From Thraustochytrium sp. TN22 (lineage: Eukaryota; Sar; Bigyra; Thraustochytrida; Thraustochytriidae), in the NCBI GenBank assembly GCA_013306675.1, contig JABLUY010000316.1, forward strand, positions 1 to 35,150: a stretch of DNA of 35,150 nucleotides. The letters are read 5' to 3'. Under the pieces are notes generated by a model, which saw only the letters and a program-made list of their open reading frames with translations, did no database searches and was not told the origin of the DNA. This document shows, piece after piece, positions 1 to 21,600 of the stretch (position 1 is its first letter; the number at the start of each line of letters is the position of its first letter). A program made the position numbers and the translations under genes.

Positions 1-1112
1 GCCGGCGCGGGGGCGGGGCTTCGTTGCGTTTCTAAGACCTGTCCATCTTTTAGCTATTCGACCGGATCAGTGCTCCCTTCACTTGTTAGGTGCAGATCGG
101 TGTTTTGCTACTACTCCAGGCGCGAATCGAACTTGCGCATGGAGGCAAGCGTAGTGTGCGTGCACGCTTGCGCCTAGCAATGAGTAGTCCGTCGGCGTGC
201 CGCTGATGTGCAGGCTGTTGTGCTCGTCGGTGCAGTGGAGAGGCTGACGTGAGGACATCAGATGCTGTGTTTGGACCTGATGTGCTTCGGCAGCCGCCGC
301 GGACAAACACGAACTCGGGCTCAAAAGGGCGCATGCGTTCCGGCCAGCTCGCACAGGCCCTTGCGCCCGCGGCTGGAGGCCGTCAGTCAGTGGGCGTCTT
401 TCAAAGTTGTCTCTCGCACAAGAAACCGTTCAGAGCGAAGCAGCTTGCTGCGCTGCGACGATGCTCTCTTTTGCTGCGCTCTTTCTTCCGTCGTCGGCAA
501 CGACAACCACTTCTTTTTTCCTGGCTCGGGCGGGCAATCAGCTTGGGACCTCATTGCCTCTGCTGCTGCCTTTGGAACAGGCTGCACGATCTCAGGGTGG
601 TGGGATGGCTGTCGATGGTCTCGCTGCATTGTTGTTGATTTGCCGCTCTTTACACTTATCCAAGGCACCAAAAAGGGACTTCAGCCACTCCCTCCGCCCG
701 AGCACCCATCCCACCTGGCCATGACCTCTTGGGAACTCTAGCAAGCATCACTTACCAAGGCCCTGGAGCGGAGGTGCATCACCGTTGGCGTGTCGTGCCG
801 GTGGTCAGCTGGCCAGTTGGATGGGTTACCGCTTGATGACTCCGCATGCTCCTACTCTTGAGCCGATGGTTGTCAGTGAGTCAGAGTTGAGCCGATGGTT
901 GAGTTGAGCCGATGGTTGAGTTGAGCCGATGCTCAGAGAATCCAAGTCCAAGCAAGGGCAAATGGATGACGATGACCAGATTGCCTGTCGGTTTGTGCGT
1001 TCTTGATTGTGAGAGCTTTCATCACATGCCTGGTCTCTCGCTCTTGCTTGAAACATATTTTCACATTTCGAGACGGTTCTGGAAAGACAGACACCCAGTG
1101 TCAAGCGCAGGT
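1..1112. other. Gene-free left end, downstream of NSF
   Basis: I see no convincing gene here. Open frames in this stretch are short, overlap each other on both strands and resemble no protein family I know. Base composition is more even than in the neighbouring coding regions. It holds a perfect 8-bp inverted repeat (GCAAGCGT/ACGCTTGC, about 144-171, 11-nt loop) and a 17-bp tandem repeat near 886-936. It begins downstream of the NSF stop codon, so its right part probably includes the NSF 3' UTR and polyadenylation region. A gene lying mostly off the left edge cannot be excluded. Confidence 0.6.
858..936. repeat. 17-bp tandem repeat
   Basis: Units GTTGAGCCGATGGTTGA lie at 886-902 and 903-919. 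A partly diverged third unit lies at 920-936, and an isolated copy of the core TTGAGCCGATGGTTG begins near 858. The array sits about 180 bp beyond the NSF stop codon, in its likely 3' flank. No function is evident; replication slippage is the simplest explanation. Confidence 0.85.
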
Positions 1113-3377
1113 TCAGCTGTAGCCGATGGAGAGAAGGCACTCCTGGAAGCGATCGACGGTGATCTCTTCGACGCCCTGGCGCGCCATTTCGAGGACGACG
1201 AGGAGCTTCTTGACGGCGATGGGCTTCTTGCAGTCGCGCGCGATCGCGGCGAGGTGGTCGGGCGCGATGCGGACGGCGGAGGCGTCGGCCTGGCTCTGAT
1301 CGATGAGATTGCGAATGACCTCTTCGACAGCCTTGTCGGAGTCGAGCAGGGGCATGGAGAGCTCGACGTTGAAGACCTGGACGAGGCCGAGGTCCTGGAG
1401 GAGGTGCGGGACGGAGGTGGTGCCGACGACCATGAGCTTGCGGTCCTCGCGCGGCGGCGGCTTGTTGATGAGCACGAGGAGGGCTTGGAGCACGAGGTTG
1501 GAGAAGCGCGGGCCGATGGGAACGTAGTCGATGAGGCGCTCGATGTCATCGAAGACGATGAGGGAGATGGGGCTCTTGTAGGCGTCCTCGAAGATGGCAG
1601 CGATCTGGGAGCACTTTTGGTTCTCGGAGTAGCCGATCATGGAGTCGGCTGTGACAACCTTGGTAAAGTTGAAGCCTGCCTCGGCGGCCATCTTGGCGAT
1701 GACGGCGGTCTTGCCACAGCCCTTCTCGCCGGCGAGCAGGACGGAGAGCAGCGGGGTGCGCGGCGAGTAGAGGCACTGGTCGGCGAGCGCGCGGAGCGTC
1801 TGGTCGACGTGACTGAAGGCCTCGTTGAAGGGGATGACGCCGTTGCGGTAGAGGCTCTTGAGCTCCTCCTCGGCCTGCACGCCAAAGGCGGGGTGGACTT
1901 CGCTGAGGGCGGCGTCAAAGTCGTCGCCCGTGACGACGATGCGGTCCGCGTCCATGAGCTTGGAGAGGTCCTCGGAGTTGACATGGCGATTGGTGGCGAA
2001 GGAGACGGCGGAGCGCACGAGGCCCTCGATCTCGGCGCCGGAGAAGTTTTTGGTGTCACGCGCAAGCGCGGGCAGGTCGACGTCGGTGCCGAGGCTGTCG
2101 GTGTCGCGCATGCTCTTGGTATGGATGTTGAGGATCTGCAGGCGGCCCTCCTCGCTGGGCAGCCCGATTTCCATCTGCACCTCAAAGCGGCCGGGACGCA
2201 GGAGCGCCGAGTCGATCATGTCGAGGCGGTTGGTCATGCCGATGAGCAGCACGTTGTTGAGCGAGTTGACGCCGTCGATCTTGGCGAGCAGCTGGTTGAC
2301 GACGGAATCGCCCACGCCCGTGCCGTCGCGCTTGCTGCCACGCTGGCGGCAGATGGCGTCGATCTCGTCAAAGATGATGACATGCAGCTCGCTGTCGTCG
2401 CCGGCGGCGGCTTGCTCCTCCTCGGCCTCGGCGAAGAGCTTGCGCACGTTCTCCTCAGCCTGGCCGACGAACTTGCTGAGCACCTCGGGGCCCGAGACGA
2501 TCTTGGGCTCGCGCGCGTTCTCGCCCCCCTGCAGCACCTTGCTGATCTGGCGCGCGATGAGCGTCTTGCCGCAGCCGGGCGGCCCGAAGAGCATGAGGCC
2601 GCGCACGTGCTTGATGCCGAGCTTGCGTACGACCTCGGGCGGCAGGATACGCGAGACAAAGGCGCGTCGGAAGATGTCGCCGAACTCCTTGTTGAGGCCG
2701 CCGATGCCGAGCTTCTCGAAGTTGGTATCCATCATCTTGCTCGCCGACTTGCGCGTGGCTTGGCCCGTGAGCCGCAGCGAGGCGTCGCCGACCTTGCTAA
2801 AGGTCCACGCCGTCGACTTGGTCAGGACGCCGCCGCCGCCGCGCCGCAGCTGATCCACGACGGCGCCTGCCGCGCCGCCTGCCGCCTCCGACTGCGCCTG
2901 CCCGCTCACCTGCGGCACGTGGGCCACGTCCCCCACGCTGATGCGCACTGGCTCACCCTTGAACTTGTAGGCCATGCTCATGCCGCGCTCCAGCACCTGG
3001 CCGCCAAAGGCCTGGCAGAGCTCCTCGGTCAGCTCGCGGCAGTCGATCACGGTCTCGCGCGCGGATGCCTTGCGCAGGAGCGCCACGCTCGCCTCCACGG
3101 AGTCCAGGTACAGCGTCTCATCGCGCGGCAGCCGGAAGGGACGCACCGCCACGCGCTGGTCCTGCTCCACGCGCAAGAAGTTCCGCTGTAGGTTGCTCAG
3201 CGCCAGCGTGCCAGGCGCCACTTCGCCCGAGCTCTTGAGCGTCAGCACGTGGCCCGTCACCTCCACGAGCTCGTTGCCCGGCGACAGCCCTGCAGCTGCA
3301 TAGTCTTGCTCGCTGCAGTACGCGCAGTTCGTGTACGCCAGCCGCACCGACGTCAGCGCCGCCACCGCGAGCTCCAT
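1113..3377 (-). CDS. NSF: Vesicle-fusing ATPase NSF/Sec18
   Basis: A 754-aa AAA+ ATPase that with SNAP disassembles SNARE complexes after membrane fusion, acting in the cytosol and on Golgi, ER and endosomal membranes. The order is an N domain (about residues 1-190), D1 and D2. D1 has Walker A GPPGCGKT at 265-272, Walker B IIFDEID at 334-340 and an arginine-finger region (LLRPGRFE near 393-400). D2 has GEKGCGKT at 550-557 and the NSF-type Walker B VFDDIERL near 608-615, followed by DYVPIGPRFSN, which separates NSF from CDC48/p97. Length matches animal and yeast NSF. The start is the first ATG that gives a complete N domain, and no intron is needed. It diverges from the RPC9-like gene. A long open frame on the opposite strand is a GC-bias shadow. 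Confidence 0.96.
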   Translation of the reverse strand: MELAVAALTSVRLAYTNCAYCSEQDYAAAGLSPGNELVEVTGHVLTLKSSGEVAPGTLALSNLQRNFLRVEQDQRVAVRPFRLPRDETLYLDSVEASVALLRKASARETVIDCRELTEELCQAFGGQVLERGMSMAYKFKGEPVRISVGDVAHVPQVSGQAQSEAAGGAAGAVVDQLRRGGGGVLTKSTAWTFSKVGDASLRLTGQATRKSASKMMDTNFEKLGIGGLNKEFGDIFRRAFVSRILPPEVVRKLGIKHVRGLMLFGPPGCGKTLIARQISKVLQGGENAREPKIVSGPEVLSKFVGQAEENVRKLFAEAEEEQAAAGDDSELHVIIFDEIDAICRQRGSKRDGTGVGDSVVNQLLAKIDGVNSLNNVLLIGMTNRLDMIDSALLRPGRFEVQMEIGLPSEEGRLQILNIHTKSMRDTDSLGTDVDLPALARDTKNFSGAEIEGLVRSAVSFATNRHVNSEDLSKLMDADRIVVTGDDFDAALSEVHPAFGVQAEEELKSLYRNGVIPFNEAFSHVDQTLRALADQCLYSPRTPLLSVLLAGEKGCGKTAVIAKMAAEAGFNFTKVVTADSMIGYSENQKCSQIAAIFEDAYKSPISLIVFDDIERLIDYVPIGPRFSNLVLQALLVLINKPPPREDRKLMVVGTTSVPHLLQDLGLVQVFNVELSMPLLDSDKAVEEVIRNLIDQSQADASAVRIAPDHLAAIARDCKKPIAVKKLLVVLEMARQGVEEITVDRFQECLLSIGYS

Positions 3378-19336: not shown

Positions 19337-21600
19337 TTAGCCGACGGCGTCAGCAGCCCGCGCGCGGGCCAGGTCGAGAAGGCGCTGGTTCGTCTCAATA
19401 TAGGCCTCCGGGGAATGAATCGGGAGGCGCTCGGCCTCCATGACGATGCCGGCGAGGCCCGCAGACTGGCGCAGGCGGTCCAAGGCCGGCGTAAAGGCAA
19501 TGTCACCACGGTCCGAACGCAGGTCGTGTTGAACAAAATCGTCGAGAATGTCAAAGATGGCATGGTCCAACGCGTACATGCCGAACATGGTCAGGTACTC
19601 GTTCTCCGGCATGGCATCAATATGCAGGTTCTCGCGCGCAAAGGCCTCCGTTGGCTTCTCCACGACCGAGGTGACGGTGAGGACCTGGTTCGACACACCG
19701 GGCACAGCCGCGTCCCGAAAGGCGCCCGTGGCCGTGCCGAACTTGGGGACCTCGCCGAGCGAGGTGCGCTTGAGGCCCACCACGTTGGTACCGAGCATCT
19801 TGTGCGCGTTGAGCACCTGGCCCACGCATGAGCGCACGCCACGGCCCAAGCGACCGTCCTCCTCGGGCGAAAGGTAAACGTGGTGGCCGAGCACCAAGAG
19901 AAAGGGCGCCTGGCCCACGAGGTCGCGCGCGCAGTGCACGGCGTGCCCGTATCCCTGCTGCTGCTCCTGCACCACGAAGTCGACGTGACGGCCCATGTCC
20001 GCGAGGCGGCGCGCGTACGAGGCCTGCGCGCTGGCCTTGGGCAGGCGCGACGCGTTGTTGGGCGCCAGCGGCTCCTGGAAGAGGCGCCTGAACTGCACGA
20101 GGTCGTCCGCCTGCACGACCAGCACGATGCGCTCGAGGCCGGCCTCCAGCAGCTGCTCCACCGTCCCGAGAATGAGCGGCTTGCACATGCCGTCGTTGGG
20201 ATCGTAAATAGGAAAAAGCTCCGCCTTGCACGCCTGGCTCGCCGGATACAAACTGCCAGCGAAGCCGCCCGCCGGGATGACGGCCGTCCGTATGCGGCTG
20301 CCCGGGCTGATGGTGAGCAGCAAAGGGTCCATGTGCAGCTCGTCCTTGATGATTCGCGCCGTCTCGCGCTGCGCGTCGGCGTCGCGGCACAGAAGCTGCG
20401 CCGTGCCGTCGCCGCCGGCGCCCACCCACTTGCCGCCTGTGATGAGCGGCTGCAGGCTCGGGTGCGCCAGGCAGCGGTGCAGCACTGGCGCCGTCAGCTC
20501 ACTCGGGCACAGCGGTGCGCCGTACGCGTCGAAGCCGGCCTGTGCCTCCGTCATGAGCGCGCCCAGCTTCTCGCGAACCGCCTCCGGCCCGCCCACCGAG
20601 CGCGGGTCTGCCGACATGAGCTGCAGCGCGCGATGCACCACCTCCTTGTTGCGCGCGCCCAGAAACTCCTGCAGCTGCTTTTGCTCCTCATTCTGCGCCA
20701 CCGGGTATGCGCTGCGCAGGCCGTCTAGGATGCGCACCGTCGACTTGGCTGCGCACAGGTCCACAATCACATAGTGCAGCTCCAGCCCCACCGTGATCTT
20801 TTGCACGCCGGTGAACTCCCCGTCGTACGTCATGAGCACTGGCGTGCTGCCGAACGCGCACGCCTGGTCCAGCCGCCCGCACTGCGATGGCGTCACCAGC
20901 TCGCCCTGGTACGCGTATTCCATCTCGCCGCGCGTTGTCAGCCGCAGGTCGTACAGCTTGTTGAAGGCGCGCGTCGCCAGCACGCACACCGCCGCGGACG
21001 ACGACAGCCCTTTCTTGAGCGGCAAGGTCGTCATGTGGTTGTCAATTTCCAGCCCGCCCACGACGTGGTCCTCCAGGATCTTGTATGCTACGCCTGCCAC
21101 ATAGCTGAAGAAGCCGCCTTCGCGCGCCACCTTGAGCAGCGTCTCGCGGTCCATGCTGAACTCCGCGCGGTCGCGCTTCCCATCGTTGTCCGTGCTCGTC
21201 ACGACCAGCTTCGACGGGTGCTTTTTCACGCGCGCGTACCTGGTTCGGAGGACCTGGTGCGTCAGCTCTAGCTCTAGAGCTTTCCCTCGGACTCGTAGAC
21301 AGAAAGATAAGACAGAACAACTTACAGGCCCTGATTCGTCCCGGTCACCAGCGTGTACCCTTCGCAGATGGCCGGGTTGAAGGTGCGGAACTTACCCGCC
21401 CAGTCACTGTGCTCGCCAAGCAGGCTCACCCTGCGCGCCGCGCGCCGCAGTCTTCGTCAGCGTCCTCTGCCAGCCAGCTCTCGTCGTGACCCACGTGCTT
21501 GCTTGCCTGCTCGAGCGAGCGAGCGAGCGACCCAGCCCATGACTGCCAGACCCGCGCAACCGAGCGACGCCACTCACCTGCCGGGCACGAAGAGCTCCAT
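19337..21600 (-). CDS. GHMP sugar kinase fused to GalU-type nucleotidyltransferase
   Basis: Three exons (21600-21578, 21430-21326, 21239-19337) with GT-AG introns of 147 and 86 nt give 676 aa. The first exon is only 23 nt; splicing completes the substrate-binding motif PGRVSLLGEHSDWAG (6-20). The GHMP kinase half also has LPLKKGLSSSAA (115-126), CGRLDQACAFG with the likely catalytic Asp (163-173) and a GGKWVGAGGDGTAQ loop (311-324), all intact, so a sugar 1-kinase is expected. From about 360 a GalU/RmlA-like domain begins (AVIPAGGFAGSLYPAS, then AELFPI, a KP motif, and VVEKP further on). At catalytic positions it differs: the GxGTR arginine reads Ser, the lysine before ELFP reads Ala, and the metal-binding GD reads GH (LVLGHHVYLS). 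The sugar is not identifiable; fucose, arabinose, galactose and heptose kinases are all relatives. Plant FKGP has the opposite domain order. Confidence 0.87.

Follow-up and report, generated by a model that had tools for sequence, protein, structure and literature searches.

The zebrafish GKUP protein (glucuronokinase/putative pyrophosphorylase) is described as having an active kinase and an almost undetectable pyrophosphorylase, with a little UDP-glucuronate (UDP-GlcA) formed after 70 hours; for Xenopus GKUP kinase activity only is reported, pyrophosphorylase activity being given there as not detected, and the authors consider whether the gene is a pseudogene or the protein lacks a modification or a partner (PMC3938481). 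The product of the L-fucokinase/GDP-fucose pyrophosphorylase FKP/FKGP is GDP-fucose (PMC11982464). In GalU (UTP-glucose-1-phosphate uridylyltransferase) the T20M/R21H replacement is reported to lower Vmax by about three orders of magnitude, or about 500-fold in the discussion of the same paper (PMC4643126), and GMPPA is described as a non-catalytic paralogue of GMPPB that binds GDP-mannose and inhibits GMPPB (PMC11228364). Here we analyse a gene from the thraustochytrid Thraustochytrium sp. TN22, located on a 35,150-nucleotide stretch (the window) that makes up one entire contig (JABLUY010000316.1) of a 37.9-Mb assembly (GCA_013306675.1). It encodes a GHMP sugar kinase fused to a GalU-like nucleotidyltransferase (NTase) domain, in which pyrophosphorylase catalysis has very probably been lost.

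The gene lies on the minus strand and comprises three exons with GT-AG borders, and the introns mark the contig as eukaryotic. Exon 1 of the spliced model (21578..21600) opens with an ATG at 21600, encodes MELFVPG, a start matching that of Nostoc kinases, and ends in a GT donor. Exon 2 (21326..21430) encodes RVSLLGEHSDWAG...GL, which is the GHMP motif 1 and the homologue of the Nostoc GRLCLFGEHSDWAG. Exon 3 (21239-19337), whose start was read by eye, is a single open frame containing both the remainder of the kinase (20300..21239, with the GLSSSAA, CGRLDQ and GGKWVGAGGDG motifs) and the NTase domain (19337..20299; 320 amino acids, without catalytic residues). The open frame has 684 codons and no stop; the two upstream exons bring back MELFVPGRVSLLGEHSDW, and the spliced product has 676 amino acids. 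In the 630 residues read from 21229 the kinase domain PF00288 (41 bits, cut-off 22.3) is followed by the NTase domain PF00483 (35.3 bits, cut-off 21.2). The best NCBIfam model for the NTase domain alone is GalU (E 3.3e-26), at 92.4 bits against the TIGR01099 cut-off of 326.8, which the intact bacterial fusion L034 also fails to reach (189 bits). The G+C content by codon position is strongly biased in the NTase half, with the same pattern as in the kinase half. A search of the genome at E <= 1 gave no further copy of the NTase.

Homologues with the same architecture are found in bacteria. A protein search of plasmid records recovered kinases of cyanobacteria that are 46-48% identical. Prokaryote genomes, scanned with a kinase alignment, yielded 593 stretches with at least 430 relatives; of 430, the best 80 were kept, so that the frequencies given here are no census. 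With five plasmid and two IMG/VR loci added, the resulting 87 loci include 32 full same-order kinase-NTase fusions, one fusion ended by a contig end, 25 in which the NTase is a gene of its own next to the kinase, and 29 that show only the kinase in the fetched stretch (some maybe cut by a contig end). By title, the records of fusions and gene pairs come from Cyanobacteria, Poribacteria, Lentisphaerae, Omnitrophota, Phycisphaerae, Lachnospiraceae and others. The window protein shares the order of these fusions and is homologous to them throughout (e.g. L034, titled only 'bacterium', with 46% identity over 614 positions). The residue comparison below covers 57 full NTases, each either fused to such a kinase or encoded next to it (one from a plasmid, two from IMG/VR contigs, the remainder from prokaryote genomes); alignments of 230 columns or fewer were excluded and L029, the fusion cut by its contig end, was not counted.

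The NTase domain of the window differs from these relatives by four separate losses at the catalytic site, all given on the minus strand. In the loop, GFGTRL has become GFAGSL (T15 to G and R16 to S; 20252..20257), T and R each being present in 54 of the 57 relatives (at the R position two have His, L016 and L019, and L027 has a gap at an apparent frame break). The change of KKEL to KAEL (K26 to A; 20222..20224) removes the catalytic Lys, and that of LGDH to LGHH (D139 to H; 19883..19885) a Mg2+ ligand, equivalent by HMMER alignment to Asp133 of YngB (PMC7961091). The second Asp motif, FDTG or FDIG in the family, reads LPIH (D293 to P and G295 to H; 19415..19423). The catalytic Lys, the metal Asp, the second Asp and the next Gly are each found in 57/57 relatives, and the six equivalent positions of the window are occupied by G, S, A, H, P and H. 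The GalU-type active site, with GxG(T/S)R, a catalytic Lys and two metal Asp residues, is thus replaced by GFAGS, Ala, His and Pro. As the order and homology are those of the bacterial fusions and the Arg, the Lys and both Asp residues are all gone, the window protein is best seen as a derived homologue and not as a bifunctional enzyme of the bacterial kind.

An earlier note, made from the sequence alone, had claimed a sugar kinase fused to an NTase lacking catalytic residues, and had cited GFAGSL, CKAEL and LGHH; the fusion is borne out by the two domain scores and the single open frame, the three motifs are present, and the fourth loss, D(T/I)G to PIH at NTase residues 293-295, had been missed. 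Its view of the second domain as a pseudoenzyme beside a conserved kinase agrees with the residue patterns: homologues of the same architecture exist with their catalytic residues intact, and the Lys and both Asp residues are present in every one of the 57. The Lys that it saw one place early is indeed there, but does not mark a shift: the family has K-K-E at this site (first Lys 55/57, second 57/57), which indicates that the window lost the catalytic Lys and retained the ancestral neighbour, Lys25. Of its two proposals, a pseudoenzyme or a chemistry with a shifted active site, the former is supported, with the control of the kinase that the note suggested for it as a possibility, and the latter is unlikely. 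Between NTase residues 4 and 57 there is no Arg, the stretch between 274 and 309 lacks Asp, and the Asp closest to His139 is Asp148 (about 19856-19858), nine residues on, within an insertion after LGHH that is gapped in all 57 relatives; a search of the alignments for a nearby Arg, Lys or Asp found no family residue that could replace those lost. Misalignment as the source of the losses was rejected, since the same columns are recovered in pairwise and multiple alignments and no such substitute lies nearby.

Several other features of the domain are retained. It keeps 24 of 30 invariant columns and a GalU-type fold, predicted with high confidence. The structure alignment (A3) comprises 31 of the 32 full fusions, 7 of 24 other NTase rows and the window. 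The EKP motif (E214-K215, sugar and diphosphate contacts; 19655..19660, minus strand) and the QEQQQG motif (Q111 and G116, uridine contacts; 19952..19969, minus strand) are intact, with each of these four residues present in 57/57 relatives. So is Y242 (57/57), which by motif corresponds to Y218 of GalU (PMC4643126). In YngB 12 residues are assigned to UDP-glucose or Mg2+ binding (PMC7961091); their equivalents were transferred by reading the HMMER alignment, in which the paper's numbering is one higher than the chain index, and the GalU Y218 and D265 equivalents were set by motif. The low predicted local distance difference test (pLDDT) score of the GFAGSL loop (54) was considered as a sign of decay and rejected, since the same loop scores 47 in L034, the intact control. 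No GMPPA or eIF2B rows occur among the 50 matches listed by VIA-align 2, which excludes neither.

The kinase half is conserved. It belongs to the GHMP sugar kinases, with 42.2 bits for PF00288 in the spliced form (cut-off 22.3) and conserved motifs, and it retains 59 of the 62 invariant columns in an alignment of 83 kinases (BLAST alignments of 340 columns or fewer excluded). It falls below the galactokinase equivalog cut-offs and the PF10509 galactose-binding signature (19.2 against 23.1 bits) and cannot be assigned to GalK. Gene neighbourhoods of the bacterial relatives, with clusters judged by eye and without a family search, showed no common pathway naming the sugar. A separate galactokinase is encoded elsewhere in the genome (L001; TIGR00131 317 bits, cut-off 226.65). 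The genome also has four matches to the UDPGP family, two of them genes of the UDP-sugar pyrophosphorylase (USP) type: L102 (466-2319, minus strand; E 5.6e-178 to MbUSP) and L103 (1174-3108, plus strand; E 5.8e-137), each a candidate for completing the pathway in trans.

Separate trees of the kinase and the NTase with the same 56 tips agree in grouping the window with the 21 sequences that are not cyanobacterial and in setting those of cyanobacteria apart (support 100 and 99); these domain trees do not resolve the donor lineage. No match to the RuBisCO large subunit or to chlorophyll-binding families was found in the genome. The NTase of the window has the longest tip branch of its tree (1.23 substitutions per site), and in the free trees its ratio of NTase to kinase branch length is the highest of the 29 tips with a kinase branch above 0.1 (2.54, followed by L039 with 2.53). 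As the overall rate is only mildly raised, the loss appears to be concentrated at catalytic positions and not to reflect general decay. A Fisher test of lost against kept invariant columns gave p 0.0005, with classes chosen post hoc, and is not relied on.

The explanation that we favour, to which we give about an even chance as a whole, is that a galactokinase-like sugar-1-kinase is fused to a dead pyrophosphorylase that is retained as a ligand-binding tuner of the kinase. The ancestor would have been a bacterial-type bifunctional enzyme that converted free sugar and ATP to sugar-1-phosphate and this, with UTP, to UDP-sugar. In the eukaryotic protein the second active site has lost the loop Arg, the catalytic Lys and both metal Asp residues, while keeping its predicted fold and most of the other residues assigned to UDP-sugar contacts. 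The kinase would still make sugar-1-phosphate, which a free USP may now convert to UDP-sugar in trans. The dead domain might have been kept since it still binds UDP-sugar or sugar-1-phosphate without turnover, tuning the kinase much as GMPPA acts on GMPPB; the retained ligand contacts would fit such regulation.

Several points weigh against this explanation. None of the features examined here links the NTase domain to regulation of the kinase. Only seven of the 12 YngB contact equivalents are identical in the window (G12, E27, Q111, G116, G188, E214 and K215); Ala13, Lys28 and Asp133 are replaced by Gly, Ala and His, of which Lys28 is a uridine contact in YngB (PMC7961091). Asp134 and Val204 correspond to His, as in 49 of the 57 relatives, and to Met at a variable position, neither being conserved in the family, and E266, invariant in the 57, is replaced by Asp. 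The pocket may consequently bind UDP-sugar weakly or not at all. Rate acceleration was rejected as proof of a pseudoenzyme: on a fixed topology the normalised NTase/kinase ratio of the window is 1.64 (1.04-2.23 in 40 bootstraps), third of 29, and an equal rate (1.77) is seen in L039, whose catalytic residues are intact. Finally, the fused NTase of zebrafish is nearly inactive though USP is described as apparently absent from animals (PMC3938481), which argues that takeover by USP is not the general cause of such losses.

A second fusion of a sugar kinase and an NTase is encoded on contig C31 of the same genome, in the order of zebrafish GKUP (L104, 1500-3641, minus strand, equal to the L005 open reading frame 1003-3144, minus strand, plus an upstream exon). 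Its kinase we take, from its motif, to be like glucuronokinase. In its NTase, with the exon junction joined by eye, the loop Arg is replaced by Ser and the catalytic Lys by Arg, and the second Asp is missing; two stand-alone bacterial proteins that match it weakly (E 1.5e-5 and 2.4e-5) keep all those residues; with the losses in the window, two fused NTases thus look eroded in one genome. The window protein has no significant BLASTP match to this GKUP-type protein (best E 0.10). A bolder proposal, which we consider rather unlikely, is that an in-chain UDP-sugar sensor feeding back on the kinase evolved twice in this genome, each time in a different fusion, the two being unrelated and opposite in order, once free USP enzymes had taken over the second step. 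The best PF00483 match of the genome is an eIF2B gamma-like protein (L097; 562-2421, minus strand); eIF2B gamma is a non-enzymatic member of the NTase fold.

A possible, if somewhat less credible, alternative is that the dead domain is purely structural, keeping the kinase folded, soluble or oligomeric, with no ligand that matters. The high-confidence fold, the 24 retained columns and the several changed contact equivalents are all compatible with this, and UDP-glucose pyrophosphorylases of bacteria reportedly form dimers or tetramers (PMC11005391). However, six invariant ligand-contact residues are all kept, though possibly for structural reasons, and in bacteria the kinase is often alone (29/87 loci) or beside a separate NTase gene (25/87), suggesting that there it does not depend on the NTase domain for folding. 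We regard as improbable a reading in which the active site has been rebuilt and the domain remains catalytic, using for instance metal bound by His139, His140 and His295 with help from Lys25 or Asp148. The gains D139H and G295H do lie beside the family His140 (49/57), and Asp148 follows in the window-only insertion; yet Lys25 is ancestral and no gain, Arg and Asp are absent from the two spans given above, and the T/R change alone is so costly to GalU (PMC4643126). Still less probable is that the NTase half is becoming a pseudogene or that the substitutions are assembly errors, as the long tip branch might hint, given the stop-free frame, the codon-position bias, the mildly raised rate, the confident fold and four separate catalytic-site losses amid conserved sequence, which are not error-like.

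Several bacterial and putatively viral loci deserve separate mention. The same-order fusions with conserved catalytic residues, save for Arg to His in L016 and L019, are L014-L026, L032-L034, L037-L041, L047, L051, L056, L060, L073, L079, L084, L085, L088, L094 and L095. In L016 (2976-4925) and L019 (4853-6802), one titled Omnitrophota and the other 'bacterium', P-H replaces the T-R of GFGTR, where GalF has M-H, and the Lys and both Asp residues are kept. L009 (11974-13731), on a Sphaerospermopsis plasmid, has only a C-terminal kinase fragment (a 200-amino-acid frame) and, after it, an NTase gene whose catalytic residues are intact. Searches of viral contigs gave no match to the whole open reading frame; they gave two contigs with a fused relative, found via the kinase, and one weak NTase-only locus. 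The two, L094 and L095 (4752-6707), are IMG/VR contigs, putatively viral, with identical coordinates and scores; both are among the 57 and one is in the trees.

The bacterial fusions with intact catalytic residues and their eukaryotic relative, with the residues gone and the fold kept, form a natural before-after pair, in which regulation by a dead domain can be tested directly by a single domain deletion; the finding may also bear on the near-absent activity of the fused pyrophosphorylases of zebrafish and Xenopus. In the titles and abstract openings listed by searches of open-licence papers we found neither a description of the bacterial same-order fusion, which is brought to notice here, nor a name for it, nor a description of a pseudoenzyme of the window type. 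The earlier note had taken FKGP for comparison; like the window protein, FKP/FKGP unites kinase and pyrophosphorylase in one chain, in the opposite domain order, and the same-order bacterial fusion is nearer. E. coli GalF resembles the window domain in that it belongs to the GalU family and has other residues in place of the TR of GxGTR, and its activity is very low. It has no fused kinase, however, and retains counterparts of E201, K202, Y218 and D265, whereas that of D265 is missing from the window (PMC4643126). GMPPA is a further parallel, drawn for the window from residue retention: this non-catalytic protein of the NTase fold still binds its NDP-sugar and controls an enzyme of the pathway. 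Its target is a separate paralogue, whereas the domain in the window, with its putative ligand binding, shares a chain with the upstream kinase (PMC11228364). GKUP is likewise a eukaryotic fusion of a sugar-1-kinase with a bacterial-type NTase, but there the NTase comes first and the glucuronokinase second (PMC3938481), so that the window protein, with the reverse order, stands apart from GKUP.
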